In this document: one piece after another, positions 3,355-37,582 of the stretch
How positions within the stretch are numbered: the first letter of the stretch is position 1
How the letters are laid out: each line of letters begins with the position of its first letter
Source of the DNA: Spartobacteria bacterium
GTDB lineage: Bacteria > Verrucomicrobiota > Verrucomicrobiia > Chthoniobacterales > UBA10450
DNA length: 37,582 nt
Reading direction: 5' to 3'
NCBI GenBank assembly: GCA_003134785.1
Contig: PLCN01000010.1
Location: forward strand, 1-37,582
Program-made: the position numbers and the translations under genes
Notes under the pieces: model-generated
Database searches by the model: none
What the model saw: only the letters and a program-made list of their open reading frames with translations
What the model was told of the DNA's origin: nothing

Positions 3355-3936
3355 GTGGAAACACCTCTCCATCTCGAACCGCCCCACGATGTCACCCAAA
3401 TCCTGAAGGATTGGAGTGAGGGCAGCGAGGATGCCTCGGCCAGGTTGATGCCTCTGGTTTACGAAGAACTCCGCCGGCTGGCGCGCGAATACATTCGACG
3501 CGAACGCCCCGATCACACTCTCCAGGCGACTGCGCTCGTCCACGAAGCTTACCTGCGGATGGTGGACGAAAAGAATATGACCTGGAAAGACCGCGCGCAT
3601 TTCTACGGCATCGCCGCGCGCTTGATGCGGCGCATTCTGGTCGATCATGCGCGCGCTCATAACGCGGTGAAGCGCGGCGGCCTGGAGCAAAAGCTGGCGT
3701 TGGACGAAGCGCGTGATCTGCCCGCTCCCGCCGCGACCGATCTGGTGGCGCTCGACGGCGCCCTCGAGAACCTTGCCAAAACCTATCCGCGGAAGAGCGA
3801 AGTCGTTGAGCTGAAGTTCTTCGGCGGACTGGAAGCGAATGAAATCGCCGAGGTCCTCCAGATTTCGGAAAAAACCGTCCTACGCGACTGGAGCTTCGCC
3901 AAGCTCTGGCTTTGCCGGGAGCTAAGCGCCGCCTAA
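3355..3936 (+). CDS. ECF-type RNA polymerase sigma factor (pfam07638 / TIGR02999-like)
   Basis: A 193-aa sigma factor that should direct RNA polymerase to a restricted set of promoters. Region 2 is visible at about residues 15-95 (LMPLVYEELRRLAREYIRRE, ALVHEAYLRMVD, FYGIAARLMRRILVDHARA) and region 4 at about 125-190 (VVELKFFGGLEANEIAEVL, SEKTVLRDWSFAKLWL). The DHTLQATALVHEAYLR and TVLRDW signatures are typical of the Sigma70_ECF family of Planctomycetes, Acidobacteria and Verrucomicrobia. The GTG start at 3355 is preceded by AGGAA at a suitable distance. The Ser/Thr kinase gene follows in the same direction after 97 bp; in this family the kinase often takes the place of an anti-sigma factor (established pattern, here inferred). 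Confidence 0.92.
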   Translation: METPLHLEPPHDVTQILKDWSEGSEDASARLMPLVYEELRRLAREYIRRERPDHTLQATALVHEAYLRMVDEKNMTWKDRAHFYGIAARLMRRILVDHARAHNAVKRGGLEQKLALDEARDLPAPAATDLVALDGALENLAKTYPRKSEVVELKFFGGLEANEIAEVLQISEKTVLRDWSFAKLWLCRELSAA

Positions 3937-3943
3937 AGGAAAC

Positions 3944-4028
3944 TTAACCGCGGATGACGCGGATTACACAGATAGAGCAGCAGACCTCTTTTCGCCAAAA
4001 TCCGCGTTATCCGCGTAATCCGCGGTCA
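3944..4028. repeat. CGGAT-rich inverted repeat, copy 1
   Basis: Between the sigma factor and kinase genes. The left arm reads ACCGCGGATGACGCGGATTA and the right arm is its near complement (AATCCGCG...TAATCCGCGGT), with a 35-bp centre. The left arm resembles elements at 14872 and 18201, giving a family pattern of CC(A/G)CGGATGA-C(A/G)CGGATT--CAC(A/G)GAT. In RNA it would form a long hairpin that could set sigma/kinase stoichiometry. Confidence 0.75.
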
Positions 4029-4033
4029 AATTA

Positions 4034-6523
4034 ATGGTCCAGCCTGAAAGAGCGCAGCGCGTCGCCGAAATAGTAGAAGCGGCGCTCGAACGCGACGCAG
4101 CCGATTGGCCGTTATTCCTCGACGAATCTTGCGGCGATGATCTGGCGCTTCGAAAGGAGGTTGAGTCACTTCTCGGTTATCAGAAGAAAGCGACAGACTT
4201 CATCGAAGCGCCTGCCTACCAAAACCACGCAGGCTCCCTCGCGACTGAAAGCGGCGAGTTGAAGCCAGGCGATCTGCTTGGCGACTACAAGATTCTCTCC
4301 CTGCTCGGTGAAGGCGGCATGGGCGAAGTCTATCTCGCGGAAGATTTAAACCTGCATCGGCAGGTAGCTATCAAGCTCGTCAAAGCCGGTCTTGGTCGGG
4401 CAGGTCTTATTCGGCATTTCCAACGCGAGGAAAGAATTCTGGCCGCCCTCACTCATCCCAACATCGCACGTCTCTACGGCGGAGCTGTAGCTCAAGATGG
4501 ACTGCCTTACTTCGTTATGGAATACGTCGAAGGCGAGCGGCTCGACTCCTATTGCGATCTTCATCGCCTCACCATCCCGGAGCAGCTCCAACTCTTCCGC
4601 AAAATCTGCGCCGCGGTCGCTTATGCTCATCAGCACCTCGTTATCCATCGCGATCTCAAGCCATCGAACATTCGCGTAACCAAAGAAGGCGAACCCAAAC
4701 TGCTCGACTTCGGCATAGCTAAGCTCCTCGACGACGAGACGGCTCTGACTGAACAAACCTTGACACTCACCAATGTGATGACGCCGGATTATGCAAGTCC
4801 CGAGCAGGTTCGCGGCGAACCGATGACGACCGCAAGCGATGTTTATAGCCTCGGTATTGTCCTCTATGAGTTACTAACCGGAAAAAAGCCATACCGCATC
4901 AAGAGCCGGCGGCTCGAGGAAATCTCGCGCGCGATTACGGAGCAGGAACCGACCAGGCCAAGCGCGGTTATCTCGCAAGCAAGCTCTCCGCCATCCGAAA
5001 TCCGAAATCCGAAATCGTTACGCGGCGATCTCGATAACATCGTCCTGATGGCGCTGCGAAAAGAACCGGCCCGCCGTTATTCTTCGGTCGGTCAATTCTC
5101 GGAAGACATCCGGCGGCATCTCGAAGGCCTGCCGGTCATCGCGCGCCGCGACACGGTGGGTTATCGCACCTCTAAGTTTGTCGCGCGCCATCGGCTGGCA
5201 GTCGCAGCCACTGGCTTGGTCGCGCTTGCCATTCTGGGAAGTTTGCTCATCGCGCTTTGGGAAACCAGGCAAGCCCGCGCCCAGCGCGACGTCGCGCAGC
5301 GCATTAACACTTTCTTGCAGGACATGCTCGGCGCCGCCGCGCCCCAGGCGAAAGGCATTGATGTCAAGGTTGTTGATGTCCTGAGCGACGCTTCCAACCG
5401 TGCGAAAACAGAGTTGGCCAATCGGCCCCAGGTAATGGCCGACGTCTTAATGACACTCGGCAGGACTTACATCTCTCTCGGGCTCTACCAACCGGCGGAA
5501 GCGAACTTGCGGGCCGCGCTTGCGGCAAGTTTGAAAGCCAACGGCGAACTGCATTCCACTACCGCTACGACCATGGGTTGGCTGGGTTTAACTTTGTCCA
5601 ATCTTAACCAAGGCGCCGAAGGCGAATTGGTCTCACGCAAAGCTGTGGAACTCCAACGCAAGCTCCATCCTCACGGGCATGAAGATTTGGGCGTGGCCTT
5701 ATACGCTCTGGGGGTGAACTTGATCTACAACAATCATCCAAAAGCAGCACAACCCTGCCTGAAGGAAGCTTCAGAATTGATTAAGAAGCACCTGGGCGAG
5801 AACGAGGGTTATTACATGGCAGCGCTTGTCATGCTGGCGGTAGCGCATGAAAAGGCTGACGAGGCAGATTTGGCGGAGTCGCTTTATCGGCAGGCGATCG
5901 GCGTAGGCGGCCGGGTAGAACCGCGGTATCGGATCTTCCTTGCGCAGGCTCAGACATTCCTGGGAATCTTACTCATGAACAAAGCCGCTTATCCCGAGGC
6001 GGAGAGTCTGCTCCAGCAGGGCGAAACCCTTTACCGCGAGGTTTTCGGAGGCGAGGCAAATTATAGTGTCGGTGTGGTCAAGATGAACCTGGGACAGCTT
6101 TATTTTCTCAAAGGCGATTATGGCAGAGCCGAGGATGAGGATAGAAAGGCTCTCGAATTACTGCGCAAGTATTTGGGAAGTGAACATTCCTCCACCTCTT
6201 CCGCCGCCACCACCCTGGGATTAGCTTTGACGCGGGAGGGAAAGGCGGTGGAAGGCGAGACTTATTTGCGTGAAGCGCTCGCGATTCGGAAGAAAATCCT
6301 GCCCCAAGGAGACATCTTGATCCCTTACACCGCGAGTGCGCTGGGCGAATGCTTGACCACGCAGAAACGCTACGCGGAAGCCGATCCGCTGCTTACTGAG
6401 AGTTCCAGCGAGCTCAAATTGAAACTGGGCGATCGAGACAAGCGCACGATGGAAGCACGCCAGCGCCTGGTAAAGCTCTACGAGCTATGGGGGAAGCCAG
6501 ACCTGGCCGAGCGTTATCGGTAG
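4034..6523 (+). CDS. Membrane-anchored Ser/Thr protein kinase with C-terminal TPRs
   Basis: An 829-aa Hanks-type kinase. The kinase domain (about 85-370) shows the glycine loop GEGGMGEV at 92-99, Lys114 in VAIKLVK, the catalytic HRDLKPSN at 205-212, DFG at 225-227 and SPEQ in place of APE at 255-258, so all catalytic residues are present. A transmembrane helix follows at about 389-409 (AVAATGLVALAILGSLLIAL). Residues about 440-829 are TPR helices, placed outside the cytoplasm by the single-pass topology. The upstream sigma factor gene suggests a paired signalling unit. The loop at about 319-329 is coded by three perfect 7-bp repeats, an insertion absent from the standard kinase core. Substrate is not visible. 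Confidence 0.93.
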   Translation: MVQPERAQRVAEIVEAALERDAADWPLFLDESCGDDLALRKEVESLLGYQKKATDFIEAPAYQNHAGSLATESGELKPGDLLGDYKILSLLGEGGMGEVYLAEDLNLHRQVAIKLVKAGLGRAGLIRHFQREERILAALTHPNIARLYGGAVAQDGLPYFVMEYVEGERLDSYCDLHRLTIPEQLQLFRKICAAVAYAHQHLVIHRDLKPSNIRVTKEGEPKLLDFGIAKLLDDETALTEQTLTLTNVMTPDYASPEQVRGEPMTTASDVYSLGIVLYELLTGKKPYRIKSRRLEEISRAITEQEPTRPSAVISQASSPPSEIRNPKSLRGDLDNIVLMALRKEPARRYSSVGQFSEDIRRHLEGLPVIARRDTVGYRTSKFVARHRLAVAATGLVALAILGSLLIALWETRQARAQRDVAQRINTFLQDMLGAAAPQAKGIDVKVVDVLSDASNRAKTELANRPQVMADVLMTLGRTYISLGLYQPAEANLRAALAASLKANGELHSTTATTMGWLGLTLSNLNQGAEGELVSRKAVELQRKLHPHGHEDLGVALYALGVNLIYNNHPKAAQPCLKEASELIKKHLGENEGYYMAALVMLAVAHEKADEADLAESLYRQAIGVGGRVEPRYRIFLAQAQTFLGILLMNKAAYPEAESLLQQGETLYREVFGGEANYSVGVVKMNLGQLYFLKGDYGRAEDEDRKALELLRKYLGSEHSSTSSAATTLGLALTREGKAVEGETYLREALAIRKKILPQGDILIPYTASALGECLTTQKRYAEADPLLTESSSELKLKLGDRDKRTMEARQRLVKLYELWGKPDLAERYR
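4993..5017. repeat. Heptanucleotide array (ATCCGAA)x3 inside the kinase gene
   Basis: Three perfect ATCCGAA units followed by ATCG. Three units add 21 bp, exactly seven codons, so the frame is kept; they encode SEIRNPKS in a variable loop before the conserved RGDLDNIVLMALRK segment. One unit more or less would shift the frame and kill the kinase's transmembrane and TPR parts. Confidence 0.9.
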
Positions 6524-10892: not shown

Positions 10893-11041
10893 GCGGCCGG
10901 TCGCGCGGGAAATAGCCGTGATCGTCAACGCGAACACGCCCCCGCGCCATACTCCTGTTTGATTTGGTCCCGACGTCCGGCCTTCTCGCGGAATGACGTC
11001 GATGCCGTTCGTCCAAATTCGTGGTAATCTGTTATGGCACC

Positions 11042-14000
11042 ATGAAGGGAGAATTTAATTGGCTACAGTTATCAGACCTGCATTTTGGCCAGCCCAATCA
11101 AGCCGCGCTTTGGCCGAATGTGCGAAAGGCATTTTTTGACGATCTCAAGCTGATACACGACCAAATCGGACCGATCCACGCGGTGTTGTTCGCGGGCGAT
11201 ATGGTCTATTCAGGTCTAGCCGACGACTTCAATCGGTTCGAAGAAGAGGTGCTGGATAGAATTTGGAAAGAGCTAGATTCGCTGGGGTCAGGCGGTGCCG
11301 TGCTACTCGCTACGGCAGGCAATCATGATCTCGTTCGACCATCGTCAGAAAAGCCGACATCGACGCTGCGACAACTGCTGCGCCCAAATGGTTTTGCCGA
11401 AATAGCGGAGGAATTCTGGCATGCGCCCAACGAATACCTGAACCTAATAAGGGAAGCTTTTGGTAACTATCAGAAGTGGTGGTCGAAAACGAAATACCGA
11501 GGTAAGACCGGGATCACCGAAGGACTGTTACCTGGTGACTTTGCGGCATCGTTCGAGGCTGGCTCGCTCAAGGTCGGTGTAGTTGGACTGAACACTACCT
11601 TTCTACAGCTAGCTGCTGGAAACTTTGAAACGCGGTTGGAATGGGATGTCCGACAGCTCCATGAAGTCTGTGGCGACGCAGAAGACTGGTCCAAAAAACA
11701 TGATATCCGCCTGTTGATGACTCATCACGGCCCTAGTTGGCTAACTGAACGGGCGAAAGACGATTATGCCGAAATTTATCCTGCAGGGCGTTTCGCTACG
11801 CACCTATTTGGGCATATGCATGAGACCGACCTCTCTTCGATCAGAAAAGGTGGCGGCGGAGTTATTCGGAAGTGGCAGACCTCATCGTTATTCGGCATGG
11901 AAATGTTTGGGGAACCGCCTAAACAAATGCGCCGACACGGCTTCATTGCCGGAAAGATTGAGTTGGATGGCTCGGCTCCGACGATCCGGTGCTGGCCGCG
12001 CACGGCCACAAAGGATCAAGACGGATGGCGTTGCATACCAGATCATACGCGGGGCAAGCTCGAATCCGATGGTGGCACGGCTTCCGAACTGCTTGAACAA
12101 GACATCGATCAGCAGCGCCCCGCGATTGCTGACGATGAATCAAATGATACCGCTGAAGAATCCCTGCCGATCGATGAGCAGCATAGCCTAGTTCCCATCG
12201 AAACCGCCCTAACGGCGGAACCCGCAAGGGAGCGATTGCGATCTATCGCCCGTTATAGACCGAGGTCGCACGAAGGCCATCGCGCGGTTCGCAAGGAGGA
12301 ACAAGCGACCTTTGAGACCGTTGTTCAAAGATGGCGGGTAGTCTGTGTGGTTTCCGACTGGGGTCTAGGAAAGGAGGGGTTTCTTGGATGCGCTCTCGAA
12401 CGAATCGTTTCACCTCTGAGTGCCGCAGATATTTTTAGGGTTAATTGTGACGAAGCCGAAACCGTTGACAAATTGCTCGCACTTGCGGCCACCCAGCTCG
12501 GAATGTCCTTCCAGCAATTTTGTACCCTAGCCGCCGTTTTACCTCGTTCGTTTTTGATCTTCGATGAAGTGCCGAATGCCCTGCTGACAGGCGCAGAACA
12601 AGACAAGTTTAAGCGGCTAATTCGCTCTACGCTCGATTATTGTCCGGACCTGTCGATTGTTATAACGACCAGGCAGAAGCCAGATGCCGAAATATGGCGG
12701 ACGGTTGAGCTACAGCGCCTAGATGCCTTCGACGTGCGCGAATATATTGCGAATCATCCGCAGTCCCCGCCCCAGGTGGCAGATGCTGACGCCATCGAGC
12801 GCATCGAGCGGTGGTCGGGCGGGTTACCGATGCACCTGGACAGGCTGCTGGAACTACTGCCCATAACTGGCCTTTCAGACATTCTCGAAGAGGAAATGGA
12901 CCATGCCCCTACTGCAGTCGGGCTGGTTGAGCCAGTTCCAAAGGCGCTGCAGCAGGCCGTGGCGCACCTTACCAATTCCGTCAACGAGTATTCTCGACGC
13001 AGTTACAAGATGCTCAAAGTCCTAACTATCCTCGCAGAGGGAGAGACACTGCAATCTATTAAGAGATTTTATCCCACCGAGCCGTTTCACCTTCAAAATG
13101 TGACAGAATTGATGAGGTTGTTGTTGTTGGAGACGGTGAGTCCTACAGCCTCTGCCGATGACTTAGCAGCGAATCGCGCTGCTAAACCTTCGATCGAGGC
13201 TGATATTGCTAAGGTCCTTCGAATACCGCGCCAAGTGCGGGATTTTGTGCGCACACTAATCTCGGAAGAAGACAGGATGGAGATCATACACGCCTCGACA
13301 GAACTCCTCTTTGGACGGAAATGGCGTGACGGTAAAATTAGACTCCGACGTGAACTGCCGCGGTTCACTGGAGGAGTAGGCGGCGACCCTGGAAACGAAC
13401 ATATAGTAATACGCTCGCTCGTTTACGAGGGACTTGCGAAACGTAACGCTGCCACAACGAAACGAGCGGCAAATCTTGGACTAGCTTACGCAGAGAAGCT
13501 CTTGTCGGCTGACCGGTTTCGGGATTTGAGCGTCGTTGCTGGCGAATTAGTGCACCTACTCGAACAGACTGAGTTTCGGGAACAGTGCGTCGATGCCGCG
13601 GCTCTTTATGGCAAGGCGCTGCGCATGACGGGTAAACGACAAGAAGCGATCCGCGTCTTCGAGGATGCCATTGAACAAGGGCAGCAGTATTTAAGCAAGG
13701 AATCCAAGGCTTCGCTGCTATTGGGTGTTGCGCTTAGTCATGAGATGGACGGCAAATTATCGGACGCCGCCGATGCGGCGCGAGAGGCGTTGGAATTCGT
13801 ACACCCAGAGTCCGCACACGGGACACAGGCTAGAGCGATTATCATCGGGGCCACAGAATCAGGATTCGAACGGGAGAAACAGTTGGCAACGTTAGAACAG
13901 TTCGCTCGCAACAAAGAATACCTAGTTGTCGCAAATAACCTGGCATTGGACCTTGCCCGCACGGGAAAGAACGTTGAAGAATCTCTTCGACTACAGCGCT

Positions 14001-14446
14001 TGGTTCTTCGATCGAGAGGCGACGACTATAATCGAATGCGAGCTATAGTAGACCGCTCGGATCTTTTGACGCGACTGGATCGTCTCTCCGAGTTGTCTTA
14101 CAAGGACCGGCAGCTTTTGAGTGCGAGTTACTCTTACAGTTACGGGCAACGACTGAGCGGTTTGTTTGATCGCTGTCACATGGTACTCTGGTCGGTCTTG
14201 TTTAAGGAGCGGCTGTGGGCGCCACTGCTCCGAGTTTTCCGACATAGCTCGTTTTTGATGCGAATTAAAGGCGCGGATGAACAGGAGCAACGATACCTAC
14301 ACGAACTGAAGGAAGTGGATTCAAGCACGTTCAAAGATGCCGAACGCGCAGCGCTCAGAACCGAACTTCAATACTTGGACAAACGCAGACACGATACCGA
14401 AGACGGCGCTTCCCCCGAGGACTCACATGAGGGGACAACAGAATAA
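11042..14446 (+). CDS. Metallophosphoesterase-STAND NTPase-TPR protein, candidate defence effector
   Basis: A 1134-aa protein from ATG 11042; a GTG at 11021 is less likely because the family motif begins right after the ATG. Residues about 1-325 are a calcineurin-like phosphoesterase with its metal ligands: SDLHFG (Asp12, His14), FAGD (Asp53), GNHD (Asn94, His95), THHG (about 228-229) and FGHMHE (His258, His260). After a linker (about 335-395), residues about 400-640 look like a STAND NTPase: a P-loop-like SDWGLGKEGFL, Walker B FLIFDEV, sensor ITTRQKP, and a GLP motif (GGLPMHLDRLL). The remainder is helical, with TPR-like segments at about 770-960. Such effector-NTPase-repeat layouts are typical of nucleotide-dependent antiphage sensors such as Avs-like STANDs; the phosphoesterase would be the killer domain (inference). 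Base composition looks less GC-rich than its neighbours, and both flanks carry gene scars, suggesting acquisition. The P-loop lacks the usual Ser/Thr after Lys. Confidence 0.85.
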   Translation: MKGEFNWLQLSDLHFGQPNQAALWPNVRKAFFDDLKLIHDQIGPIHAVLFAGDMVYSGLADDFNRFEEEVLDRIWKELDSLGSGGAVLLATAGNHDLVRPSSEKPTSTLRQLLRPNGFAEIAEEFWHAPNEYLNLIREAFGNYQKWWSKTKYRGKTGITEGLLPGDFAASFEAGSLKVGVVGLNTTFLQLAAGNFETRLEWDVRQLHEVCGDAEDWSKKHDIRLLMTHHGPSWLTERAKDDYAEIYPAGRFATHLFGHMHETDLSSIRKGGGGVIRKWQTSSLFGMEMFGEPPKQMRRHGFIAGKIELDGSAPTIRCWPRTATKDQDGWRCIPDHTRGKLESDGGTASELLEQDIDQQRPAIADDESNDTAEESLPIDEQHSLVPIETALTAEPARERLRSIARYRPRSHEGHRAVRKEEQATFETVVQRWRVVCVVSDWGLGKEGFLGCALERIVSPLSAADIFRVNCDEAETVDKLLALAATQLGMSFQQFCTLAAVLPRSFLIFDEVPNALLTGAEQDKFKRLIRSTLDYCPDLSIVITTRQKPDAEIWRTVELQRLDAFDVREYIANHPQSPPQVADADAIERIERWSGGLPMHLDRLLELLPITGLSDILEEEMDHAPTAVGLVEPVPKALQQAVAHLTNSVNEYSRRSYKMLKVLTILAEGETLQSIKRFYPTEPFHLQNVTELMRLLLLETVSPTASADDLAANRAAKPSIEADIAKVLRIPRQVRDFVRTLISEEDRMEIIHASTELLFGRKWRDGKIRLRRELPRFTGGVGGDPGNEHIVIRSLVYEGLAKRNAATTKRAANLGLAYAEKLLSADRFRDLSVVAGELVHLLEQTEFREQCVDAAALYGKALRMTGKRQEAIRVFEDAIEQGQQYLSKESKASLLLGVALSHEMDGKLSDAADAAREALEFVHPESAHGTQARAIIIGATESGFEREKQLATLEQFARNKEYLVVANNLALDLARTGKNVEESLRLQRLVLRSRGDDYNRMRAIVDRSDLLTRLDRLSELSYKDRQLLSASYSYSYGQRLSGLFDRCHMVLWSVLFKERLWAPLLRVFRHSSFLMRIKGADEQEQRYLHELKEVDSSTFKDAERAALRTELQYLDKRRHDTEDGASPEDSHEGTTE

Positions 14447-34296: not shown

Positions 34297-34809
34297 TTAC
34301 TCCTTCGCCGGTCCCGTCATCGTCTTCACGCCCACCCGCGCGAGGTATTCTTCCACCTGCAAAAGGTTATCCGCACCGCGCTGGACAATCTTAAGCAGAT
34401 TATCCATCGACGACACTTCCTCCAGCTGCTCGGTTAGAAACCACTGCAGAAAATTGATCGTGATGTAATCATTCTCCGACCGCGCCAGTTCAACCAACGC
34501 ATTGATTTGATGCGTAACCTTTACTTCCTGATCAAGCGAAAGCTTTATCGCGGCCTCCGCGGTTTTGAAACTTGCCTGTGGCGCATCGATCGCCGGAATA
34601 ACCACTCGTCCGCCGGCGTCCACCACGTATTTAATAAACCGCATTGCGTGTTCATTTTCCTCTTCCGCCTGTCGAAAGAAATGCTGCGACAGCTGTGGAA
34701 GCGCGTCTGCCGCGAAATGCGCCGCAATTGCGACGTACTGCATGGAGGCGCTGAATTCGTATCCAATCTGCTCGTTGATGGCGTCGACGACTTTATTACT
34801 GATCAGCAT
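34297..34809 (-). CDS. Ferritin-like iron storage protein
   Basis: A 170-aa four-helix-bundle ferritin of the FtnA type, cytoplasmic, oxidising Fe(II) and storing Fe(III). The di-iron ligands are in place: Glu18 in QIGYEFSASMQY, Glu51 and His54 in AEEENEHAM, Glu95 in LDQEVKVTHQ, and Gln/Glu near 128-131 in FLTEQLEEV. No heme-ligating Met as in bacterioferritin is evident. The length matches the family (about 165-175). It points left, convergent with lpxD and divergent from the decayed nuclease locus. Confidence 0.92.
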   Translation of the reverse strand: MLISNKVVDAINEQIGYEFSASMQYVAIAAHFAADALPQLSQHFFRQAEEENEHAMRFIKYVVDAGGRVVIPAIDAPQASFKTAEAAIKLSLDQEVKVTHQINALVELARSENDYITINFLQWFLTEQLEEVSSMDNLLKIVQRGADNLLQVEEYLARVGVKTMTGPAKE

Positions 34810-34921
34810 ATAAATCTTTCTGCGTTCCCTTTGTCTTAACGCACGAACGCTTTGCGATCAACTTGTCATCGGACGCACTCGCCTATTGCGGCGCCCAATT
34901 TCAGCCGCGAAATTGCCGACG

Positions 34922-36372
34922 ATGAGCGAGCGAGAACCACTTCCAGCGCAGCCCGGCCGCCAGGCTAATGCGATGCTGTCCGGCTGTGACTATCAAGTAT
35001 GGCAAACGGTAGCTGGGTGGTTTGATTTGCGCGGCACGGACGTCTTATATGTCGAAGGCGCAGAAGATTTCGATGTTGTCGGCACCGGACAAGGCGAGGC
35101 TGTCCAAGTAAAAGCCTCGGTAACACCGATTTCTCTCGGTCAAAAGGAGACGCAGGAGGCCGTCAGTAACTTCTGGCGATTGAGGCAGGCATCGTCACAA
35201 GCTTCGGTATCCTTCCGATTCCTCACCCGAGCGCCGTTTACGACCGAACGTGGGAACCCATTTGGAACGGGCGTGGCAGGAACGTTTTTGAACGGACGTT
35301 TTCTCTTGCGTCTGTCTGGGGGGAGTCGGAACTCGCCGTGGCGGCGCTGCGTGGTATTACCGTTGTCCTGGACGAATACATAAAGGATCACGACGCGGCA
35401 CTTGAGACGCTGGAGCGCCTGAGCCGCGAAGGCGACCTCGACTCGCATCACGTAAACGACCGCCGCGCATGCGTGTATTTCAGTCAAGCCAACTATGCCG
35501 CGGCCGAGAAAGAATGGACCATAGCTCTCGAGCGGTGGCCGAAAGACCCATCGTTTGATCACGGTGCAGCCTTTGCGGCCCGCAGCGCCGGTATTTCAGC
35601 AGCTCGGCAAGACAAGTGGGAGGCGGCGGCGAAATGGTTCTTGGAAATTCCCAATCGCCTCGACGAAAATGAAACGGCGTTTATAGCTAGCGCATATGCG
35701 GACGCCGGTTTTGCGTGGTGGAAGGCTGGCCACGCTGATAAGGCGGTTGACGCATTGATTGAAGCATGGAGACGTGCTGACAGCCTTCCGCTTGGCAAAG
35801 AGGATTTACGCGCGTTCCACACGAGGAAAATCATCAGCCATGTAATTGGTTGGCTGCATGAAAAGGTAGATGGGTCTGGTAATGATTTCACGGAGCCACA
35901 GCCAGGAATGTGCAGTACGGCGGAACTCCCGGAGCGGATCCGTGAACTGCCCGAGTCTGAACCCGAGGCCGTCTGGCTTTTATTGGTGCGTGTAGAGCGC
36001 GCTTTGAATGCCGGAACTCGCGCTGCAGAACTCGTAGGCGAGGGCGTCAAAGCAACTACGAGCGCGCCCATTCGCGCGATGTATTCCCTCGAAAAAATTG
36101 CGCGTAGTTTGGATAATGGCCAAGTCTATAACTTGCCAGCCCAGGTCATCGAAGCGGTTGAGATGATGCAAAAAGCTGCGCGCTTGGTTCCATCGGATAA
36201 TTTTGCAATCAACCAGTTTCCTCTCGGTGGATTTGGTGGCAATGATGGCCTGATTGGGGCCCCGCTGTTCCTTGCAGCGCTCCTTTCCGCCAATGTCTAC
36301 GACAAGTCAGCAAATGATGTAATTGGGGCTTGGCGGTCCTGTCTCGCGACCATTCCGCATCTACCAGAATGA
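34922..36372 (+). pseudogene. Decayed PD-(D/E)xK nuclease-TPR conflict protein
   Basis: From ATG 34922: about 125 residues with LSGCDYQVWQTVAGWFDLRG, the acidic cluster YVEGAEDFD (Glu48, Asp49) and VQVK (Lys64), then FRFLTRAPF-TTERGNPFG. This order (YQ near the start, ED, Q-x-K, then an FLT-x-ERGNPFG segment) is that of DUF4297/Cap4-like nucleases of bacterial conflict systems. The frame ends at 35383, while a different frame, open from about 35240, runs to 36372 and encodes an alpha-helical TPR-like region (LETLERLSREG, ANYAAAEKEWTIALERWP, GHADKAVDALIEAWRRAD). The span is one base short of whole codons. No NTPase core lies between, though relatives usually have one, so an internal deletion plus frameshift is likely. 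Confidence 0.65.
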
Positions 36373-36381
36373 GATCAATGG

Positions 36382-36811
36382 ATGACGCGGTTTGAAAAAG
36401 CAATTGGCGCAAATTTATCAGAAGCCGCCTTTGTTGCACGTAACCACACAGCTTCTTGGGTCGACGTAATGTTCGGTTCGCTGAATATTCTCTTGTCCGA
36501 GGATTGCTCGGCCGAGGACCTCTTTCTTGCACAAACACGTTGGCTAACGAATATCTCATTTTCGCCATGGCTGCGGCAAACCGGGGCCATGTTTTGCCGA
36601 CGGTTGGAGCGAGGTTGGTTACGCGTTATCACCCATCCGGCGCTTCCTTCGTCAGCCGACTCTGAATGTCCCGGAGATCAGACGCGCTTGCACGACTGGT
36701 TCGCCATCGCTCCGAAAGGCCCTCGCGATCTTCGAAGCAGCGCGGCCTGCGGTGAGCGCCCGGATTAGCGACGAGATAATAGCAACCATTCGATCGTTGA
36801 ACACCGAGTAA
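36382..36811 (+). pseudogene. Companion gene of the decayed locus, frameshifted
   Basis: From ATG 36382 the frame encodes a helical protein (FEKAIGANLSEAAFVARNHT, SAEDLFLAQTRWLTNISFS, WLRQTGAMFCRRLERGWLRV) up to about 36645, then continues sensibly only in the next frame (FLRQPTLNVPEIRRACTTGS, SLRKALAIFEAARPAVSARI, then IIATIRSLNTE) to TAA at 36809. One extra base near 36645 explains it. It begins nine bases after the preceding stop and in the same frame, so it may be the second gene of the same operon. I do not recognise the family. Confidence 0.6.
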
Positions 36812-36911
36812 TTCGTTCGTCATGTCGTTCAGCGGGAACACATGCGCGCCTGACTGTCTACTCGCCGGCTTCCGGCACGGTTTTCCCTGCTCGAGTGGGC
36901 GTTCCCGAAAG

Positions 36912-36949
36912 CAAAAAGCCCGATGAGATAAACTCACCGGGCTTTTTGT
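36912..36949 (-). terminator. Intrinsic terminator of the rRNA operon
   Basis: Read leftwards: AAAAAGCCCGGTGAG, a short loop, CTCATCGGGCTTTTT, a GC-rich stem with one G-T pair flanked by an A-run and a T-run. It follows the 5S rRNA 3' end directly, and its symmetry would also stop transcription coming from the left. Confidence 0.9.
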
Positions 36950-36950
36950 T

Positions 36951-37063
36951 CTGGCGACGTCCTACTCTCGCACAACCTATCGTCGCACTACCATCGGGGC
37001 TGCAGCGTTTCACTTCCGTGTTCGGAATGGGAACGGGTGGGGCCACTGCGCTATGATCACCAG
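36951..37063 (-). rRNA. rrf: 5S ribosomal RNA
   Basis: About 113 nt. Read leftwards it starts CTGGTGATCATAGCGCAGTG, has the loop segments GGGGCCACCCGTTCCCATTC and CCGAACACGGAAGTGAAACG, and ends in CGTCGCCAG, pairing with the 5' end (helix I). The CCGAAC and GAAGTGAAAC blocks are universal 5S marks. It lies last in a left-pointing operon. Confidence 0.95.
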
Positions 37064-37134
37064 AGTGCGAGGCCGGAGTGGCTCTCCGATGCTTCGCATC
37101 GAGGGCCGTTCGGCGCCGAGATCTGGTGACGCGT

Positions 37135-37340: not shown

Positions 37341-37582
<242 letters not shown>

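Follow-up and report, generated by a model that had tools for sequence, protein, structure and literature searches.

A disrupted locus beside the rRNA genes of a Spartobacteria bacterium as the very probable remnant of one large nuclease–NTPase–TPR gene

The region between a ferritin-like gene and the rRNA genes of a Spartobacteria bacterium (positions 34922–36811, plus strand) appears in the ORF list as three open pieces, which raises the question of whether several genes or a single gene once stood there. Positions refer to the whole stretch of DNA analyzed, 37,582 nucleotides in length (hereafter, the window). The first-pass annotation had described a dead conflict-type locus consisting of a nuclease domain, a helical repeat part in another frame, and a frameshifted companion gene, with the expected NTPase missing. 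On the left, the locus is flanked by the ferritin-like gene (34297–34809, minus strand), which adjoins the rRNA operon in all six same-genus contigs that span the spot. The three pieces follow on the plus strand: the first at 34886–35383, with an ATG at 34922; the second at 35338–36372, which stays open for 344 codons; and the third, the supposed companion, at 36382–36768. The second and third pieces share one frame and are separated by a single stop codon, a TGA at 36370–36372. On the right, the 5S rRNA gene (36949–37064, minus strand) lies 137 bp from position 36811, as close as had been stated, and the end of the 23S rRNA gene (37343–37582) runs to the end of the contig.

Profile searches confirmed two of the proposed parts. 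The first piece (34922–35380) matched the PADLOC profiles LmuA (E = 3.8e-5) and DUF4297 (E = 4.7e-4), in agreement with a DUF4297-like nuclease domain, although its score against NCBIfam DUF4297_antiphage (17.7 bits) was below the cut-off of 300 and no Pfam family, Cap4_nuclease included, matched it at E ≤ 1. The helical repeat part was recovered at 35185–36369, in a frame other than that of the nuclease piece, as a match to TPR_12 (E = 1.3e-4, under Pfam's cut-off). For the third piece, no convincing match was obtained among the Pfam, PADLOC, or NCBIfam profiles, and an NTPase was indeed absent from the window locus. A structure prediction of the remnant, based on a two-row alignment, reached a pLDDT of 35 and was discarded.

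The first and second pieces were each searched in 58 related genomes, including the genome of origin. Both matched in the same two genomes, their own and one other of the same genus (G005). Against the G005 protein, the E values were 4.0e-26 for the first piece and 2.3e-35 for the second, and both matches fell inside one unbroken frame of 1362 codons (L007:8150–12238). The protein encoded there (P0001), 1358 aa long from a later start, is arranged in the order nuclease, P-loop NTPase, and helical/TPR tail. In a frame-aware alignment, all three window pieces were colinear with P0001 and in the same order. Window positions 34928–35281 corresponded to residues 5–122 and positions 35281–36799 to residues 839–1351, with 184 identities over 617 aligned positions and a gap of 716 residues. 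The lost residues comprise the rest of the nuclease region, the NTPase, and the first part of the C-terminal region.

This alignment divides the locus into an N-terminal nuclease remnant (34922–35281, aligned from 34928), which keeps the E..AEDfD...QVK stretch, a junction at 35281–35284, where the frame changes, and a C-terminal helical/TPR part (35284–36369) that starts near residue 840 of P0001. Beyond the in-frame stop at 36370, the rest of the C-terminal part (36373–36811) contains frame changes near 36588 and 36647, and the aligned frame stops at 36809–36811. Since identity to the homologues was 43% and 28%, indicating distant relationship, the breakpoints, including the junction, are exact only to within some residues. 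The two late frame changes could in part be effects of the alignment.

The third piece was considered separately. Searched by itself in eight genomes of the genus, it matched only its own, and nothing in G005 reached E ≤ 1e-3; its link to the family therefore rests on one frame-aware alignment. When aligned alone with the last part of P0001, it scored 64, compared with a mean of 29.2 (SD 4.3, maximum 43) for 100 codon shuffles, a difference not explained by chance. As the third piece lies in the frame of the second, one stop codon away, and all three pieces align to one protein, it does not represent a separate companion gene. Judging from its sequence, it is the C-terminal part of the nuclease–NTPase–TPR protein. 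The NTPase, whose absence was confirmed, is by the alignment not a missing partner; it belonged to the interior of this one gene and was lost from there.

Taken together, 34922–36811 is very probably what is left of a single large gene, now a pseudogene, which was most likely gained horizontally, lost its middle, acquired more lesions, and no longer encodes a working protein. With the NTPase missing from the 716-residue gap, the locus is a dead remnant rather than a working member of the family, and no activity is expected from it. The view of a dead nuclease/TPR conflict-type locus is supported.

We examined the intact protein in the G005 homologue and in an alignment of 11 intact members. 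The PADLOC LmuA profile covered residues 17–237 of P0001 (E = 2.5e-10), and LmuA (8 members), DUF4297 (4), and mad8 (3) were the only PADLOC families found over the 11 members at E ≤ 0.01. On the intact homologue, the Cap4_nuclease (PF14130) scores of 13.4 and 16.9 bits stayed below the gathering score of 26.2, and NCBIfam DUF4297_antiphage, at 24.1 bits, did not reach its cut-off of 300; nSTAND3 was likewise under Pfam's cut-off. Weak matches in single members were obtained to AAA, AAA_16, nSTAND5, nSTAND3, and TPR models, with nSTAND3 and nSTAND5 below their cut-offs. Searched against PDB, the family profile had p97-type AAA domains as its top matches (4.5e-6); a match to the DUF4297 nuclease 8xav covered positions 16–89 (0.0032).

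At the nuclease end, E47 and D51 were invariant and E50 and Q64 nearly so, and the K of QxK was R in some members. The NTPase contained the invariant residues G320 and K321, D372, and G462, together with the nearly invariant D371, H463, and P464. We take G320/K321 to mark the Walker A stretch and G462–P464 to be the GxP motif of STAND NTPases. The presence of a nuclease and a P-loop NTPase in the intact protein is well founded, and the NTPase is likely of the STAND type. The remnant retains E47, E50, D51, and Q64 of the nuclease end. Seven invariant and 13 nearly invariant positions were compared, and the remnant differs at two of the former (T68 and T105) and three of the latter. Across the family, the C-terminal half was far less conserved than the rest. 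Of 11 plasmid proteins, seven matched the C-terminal piece of the window at E ≤ 1e-4; the Sphingopyxis and Deinococcus proteins gave 0.046 and 0.13, and the Caulobacter and R. leguminosarum proteins were unmatched at E ≤ 1.

The distribution of the family was surveyed at several scales. At a threshold of 1e-10, five of 213 genomes of the order contained six loci: that of the window; the intact one in G005 (contig C20); two in G115, one open and divergent (C567) and the other open and cut by the contig end (C364); and copies in several frames in G185 (Ca. Udaeobacter; Verrucomicrobiota) and G180. Among plasmids, 15 of 72,556 records matched, and none of 50,697 phage records did. In the viral_contigs set, none of four pattern matches was a relative. 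Scans of genome_contigs yielded one relative (a Ca. Udaeobacter contig, probably the one already counted as G185:C111) among 42 pattern matches with the intact protein and none among 24 with the C-terminal piece alone.

Frames and annotation were examined for 12 of the 15 plasmid records (H1–H12) as well as for H14 and for a record added later, H26; H13 and H15 were left out. Eleven of the 12 homologues were single frames, comprising ten annotated genes of 1292–1455 aa and one of similar size in an unannotated record. The remaining one, on R. leguminosarum pRLTp73_3 (L037 5974–10013), consisted of two genes (770 and 576 aa) that overlap by 4 bp and are split between the NTPase and the C-terminal part. 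H14, from B. contaminans (L050 5974–7818), encodes a 614-aa protein with a family-related nuclease end on another body and without any Pfam match at E ≤ 0.01.

If the locus were a decayed two-gene conflict system, with a nuclease gene and a separate companion gene, a partner should recur beside intact homologues. The first-pass annotation had raised the prospect of such an undescribed pair, and both the three separate ORFs of the window and the two overlapping genes of R. leguminosarum could be read in that way. Against it, a single frame contains both the second and the third ORF, their alignment places them in the C-terminal part of the very protein to which the first ORF belongs, and all but one of the 12 plasmid homologues examined are single-frame. 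Furthermore, the 612 frames flanking 15 loci (within about 4.5 kb; BLAST, 1e-4) gave only three weak between-locus pairs, all from L036, L038, and L040, and no fixed partner gene recurred consistently across the 15 loci under these settings. The L036 and L038 genes in these pairs were annotated as an AAA ATPase and helicases. By annotation, SIR2, HEPN, toxin–antitoxin, or restriction genes stood near some loci, and none were found by name at others. We therefore rejected the two-gene hypothesis on the single frame, the colinear alignment, and the lack of a recurrent neighbour around the 15 loci, and regard it as extremely unlikely.

Hardly more credible is the idea that the open pieces are still useful, as a short nuclease or TPR protein working without the NTPase. 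The long open frame of the second piece speaks for it, as does the B. contaminans protein, in which a related nuclease end sits on a different body. However, the nuclease region of the window is itself cut, reaching only residue 122 where the LmuA match in the intact protein extends to residue 237, the TPR part carries its own stop and frame changes, and no relative with the nuclease-plus-TPR form of the window was found in these searches. Intact homologues lacking an NTPase were looked for, and none had the window's form; the nearest, an A. pusense fragment and the nuclease-end protein of B. contaminans, were rejected as a fragment and a different fusion, respectively.

An artefact, in which the organism carries an intact gene and the contig was misjoined or misread, would leave a similar picture. 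The genome is a draft assembly of 25 contigs, and the 37.6-kb contig ends 771 bp beyond the locus, inside the 23S rRNA gene. In addition, the G180 copy also lies in several frames, in a genome that shows stops in a control gene. Nevertheless, several kinds of lesion occur in one gene, no further copy of the first or second piece exists in the genome, and a GreA-like gene, lpxD, and the ferritin-like gene beside the locus are open in the window's genome (G000). The GreA-like control (632-aa query) was stop-free in six of the seven genomes asked, including G000, G005, and G185; G180 had two stops, and only part of the gene was found in G115. lpxD, just upstream of the locus, was present and stop-free in all eight genomes of the genus. 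These controls indicate that G000 is not generally error-ridden, and we consider an artefact very unlikely. Because of the stops in its control gene, the G180 copy was left out of the decay count.

Among the seven other genomes of the genus, six had contigs reaching both the ferritin-like gene and the 5S rRNA gene, and the G003 contig ended before. The spacer between the two genes was 143 bp in G002, 287 bp in G007, 120 bp in G001, 943 bp in G005, 276 bp in G004, and 119 bp in G006, compared with 2139 bp in the window, and none of these six genomes carried a homologue in it. This supports the suggested turnover of defence genes. Window positions 36883–36942 matched G007 at 90% and positions 36840–36948 matched G004 at 70%; as these matches persist there, the end of the foreign sequence lies close to 36,840. 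In G005, the intact copy is located away from the ferritin–5S spot, on contig C20. In a tree, this copy grouped with the Ca. Udaeobacter copy (100/99) and not with the window copy, which fell outside with modest support (91/93 for the fork excluding it), a placement that is not firm. A repeat search recognised no target duplication or terminal repeat around the remnant, and composition gave no island signal, with a G+C content of 0.51–0.59 across the locus versus 0.53–0.62 in the preceding 5 kb.

The simplest history is that this lineage acquired the gene, which later ceased to function. After divergence from the sister species, a large gene for a protein of about 1,350 residues would have entered the space between the ferritin-like gene and the rRNA operon, most likely by horizontal transfer. 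Its middle would then have been lost with a change of frame, and the stop codon and further frame changes would have been added. A less simple alternative would be that the gene is old and that six relatives have each lost it completely.

Other spacers at this spot also showed features. Inspection by eye suggested a methyltransferase-like product for a different frame, on the minus strand, within the 943-bp spacer of G005 (L045 2447–3389); the ferritin–5S spacer may collect foreign genes. In G007 (L042) and G004 (L046), a terminator-like stem seemed by eye to occur a second time, together with a short repeated stretch of the 5S side, as if part of a 5S unit had been duplicated. Elsewhere in the window, an open frame of 1141 aa (11021–14446, plus strand) resembles, at its N-terminus, PADLOC PDC-S60 (1.5e-14) as well as an endonuclease model named "Effector" (2.3e-8). 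It also matches TPR weakly and is probably the other conflict locus to which the first-pass annotation referred. An ECF sigma factor (Sigma70_ECF, 2.2e-58) lies beside a Ser/Thr kinase–TPR protein at 3355–6523.

A second case of loss was seen on plasmids, where the full-length gene of A. fabrum pAt1D1478 and a fragment on A. pusense pAt1 belong to the same family as the window remnant. The fragment (L049 6001–7347) retains 1190 bp of the C-terminal half, 99.4% identical to the A. fabrum gene. It is without the N-terminal 60% or so, whereas the window remnant suffered an internal loss instead. Where the N-terminal part would be, a restriction–modification locus and a DUF6883 gene are found, the latter ending 87 bp upstream. 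Downstream are an RHE_PE00001 gene and an integrase, a pair that also accompanies the A. tumefaciens homologue (80% over 2468 bp). The A. pusense fragment shows that, in this other lineage, loss was recent and followed a different course.

We compared the family with known systems. As described in PMC12931631, Avs (AVAST) proteins resemble the intact homologue in being one large protein with an N-terminal effector, a central NTPase (of the STAND type in Avs and likely so in the homologue), and C-terminal TPR/helical repeats; Avs5, for instance, is composed of Sir2, nSTAND3, and repeats. The effector of Avs5 is thus Sir2, whereas that of the present family is a Cap4/LmuA-like nuclease, and in the window remnant the NTPase is gone. 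STAND–TPR conflict proteins are also treated in PMC8195603 and PMC7159879. Of 122 PDB matches, the best 60 included no Avs-named molecule, and no Avs-named family was present among the PADLOC hits of the intact homologue and the 11 members. PADLOC 2.0.0 includes Avs models.

In the HerA–DUF4297 system (PMC11291478), the nuclease and ATPase are two proteins, whereas the present family fuses them into one. The family nuclease end is distantly related to that of HerA–DUF4297 (PDB 8xav, E = 0.0032; PADLOC DUF4297, 5.7e-6), and no neighbouring gene that could be a separate HerA ATPase recurred around the 15 loci in the BLAST comparison described above. The best PADLOC match of the nuclease end was LmuA of Lamassu. 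Lamassu pairs LmuA with the SMC-like LmuB; no recurrent partner gene was seen around the 15 family loci in the same BLAST comparison.

In intact members, the TPR tail would sense an invader, the NTPase would switch and assemble the protein, and the DNase, once switched on, would cut DNA. From their layout and weak profile matches, it is reasonably probable that intact members are sensor-DNases acting like Avs proteins, and the intact gene is probably of a kind that defends against viruses. Searches of PADLOC 2.0.0, Pfam, and NCBIfam returned no model of the family's own, and no description of the family or of the window locus was found in the part of the literature covered. We tentatively propose, as a possibility on the doubtful side, that the intact relatives, from Verrucomicrobiota and from plasmids of Rhizobiales, Burkholderiales, and other groups, make up a so far undescribed defence family in which one gene encodes an LmuA/Cap4-like DNase, a STAND-like NTPase, and TPR. 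Its turnover may be so fast that one would commonly meet remnants such as the window locus, the A. pusense fragment, and the broken copy of Ca. Udaeobacter.

The locus thus appears to be an unremarkable example of the acquisition and later decay of a defence gene, in which the gene-free sites remain visible in sister species. It also corrects a tempting misreading, as the pieces of a broken large gene can mimic a multi-gene system. The intact relatives, poorly covered by the family models used here, are candidate nuclease–STAND–TPR sensors and provide a modest lead.
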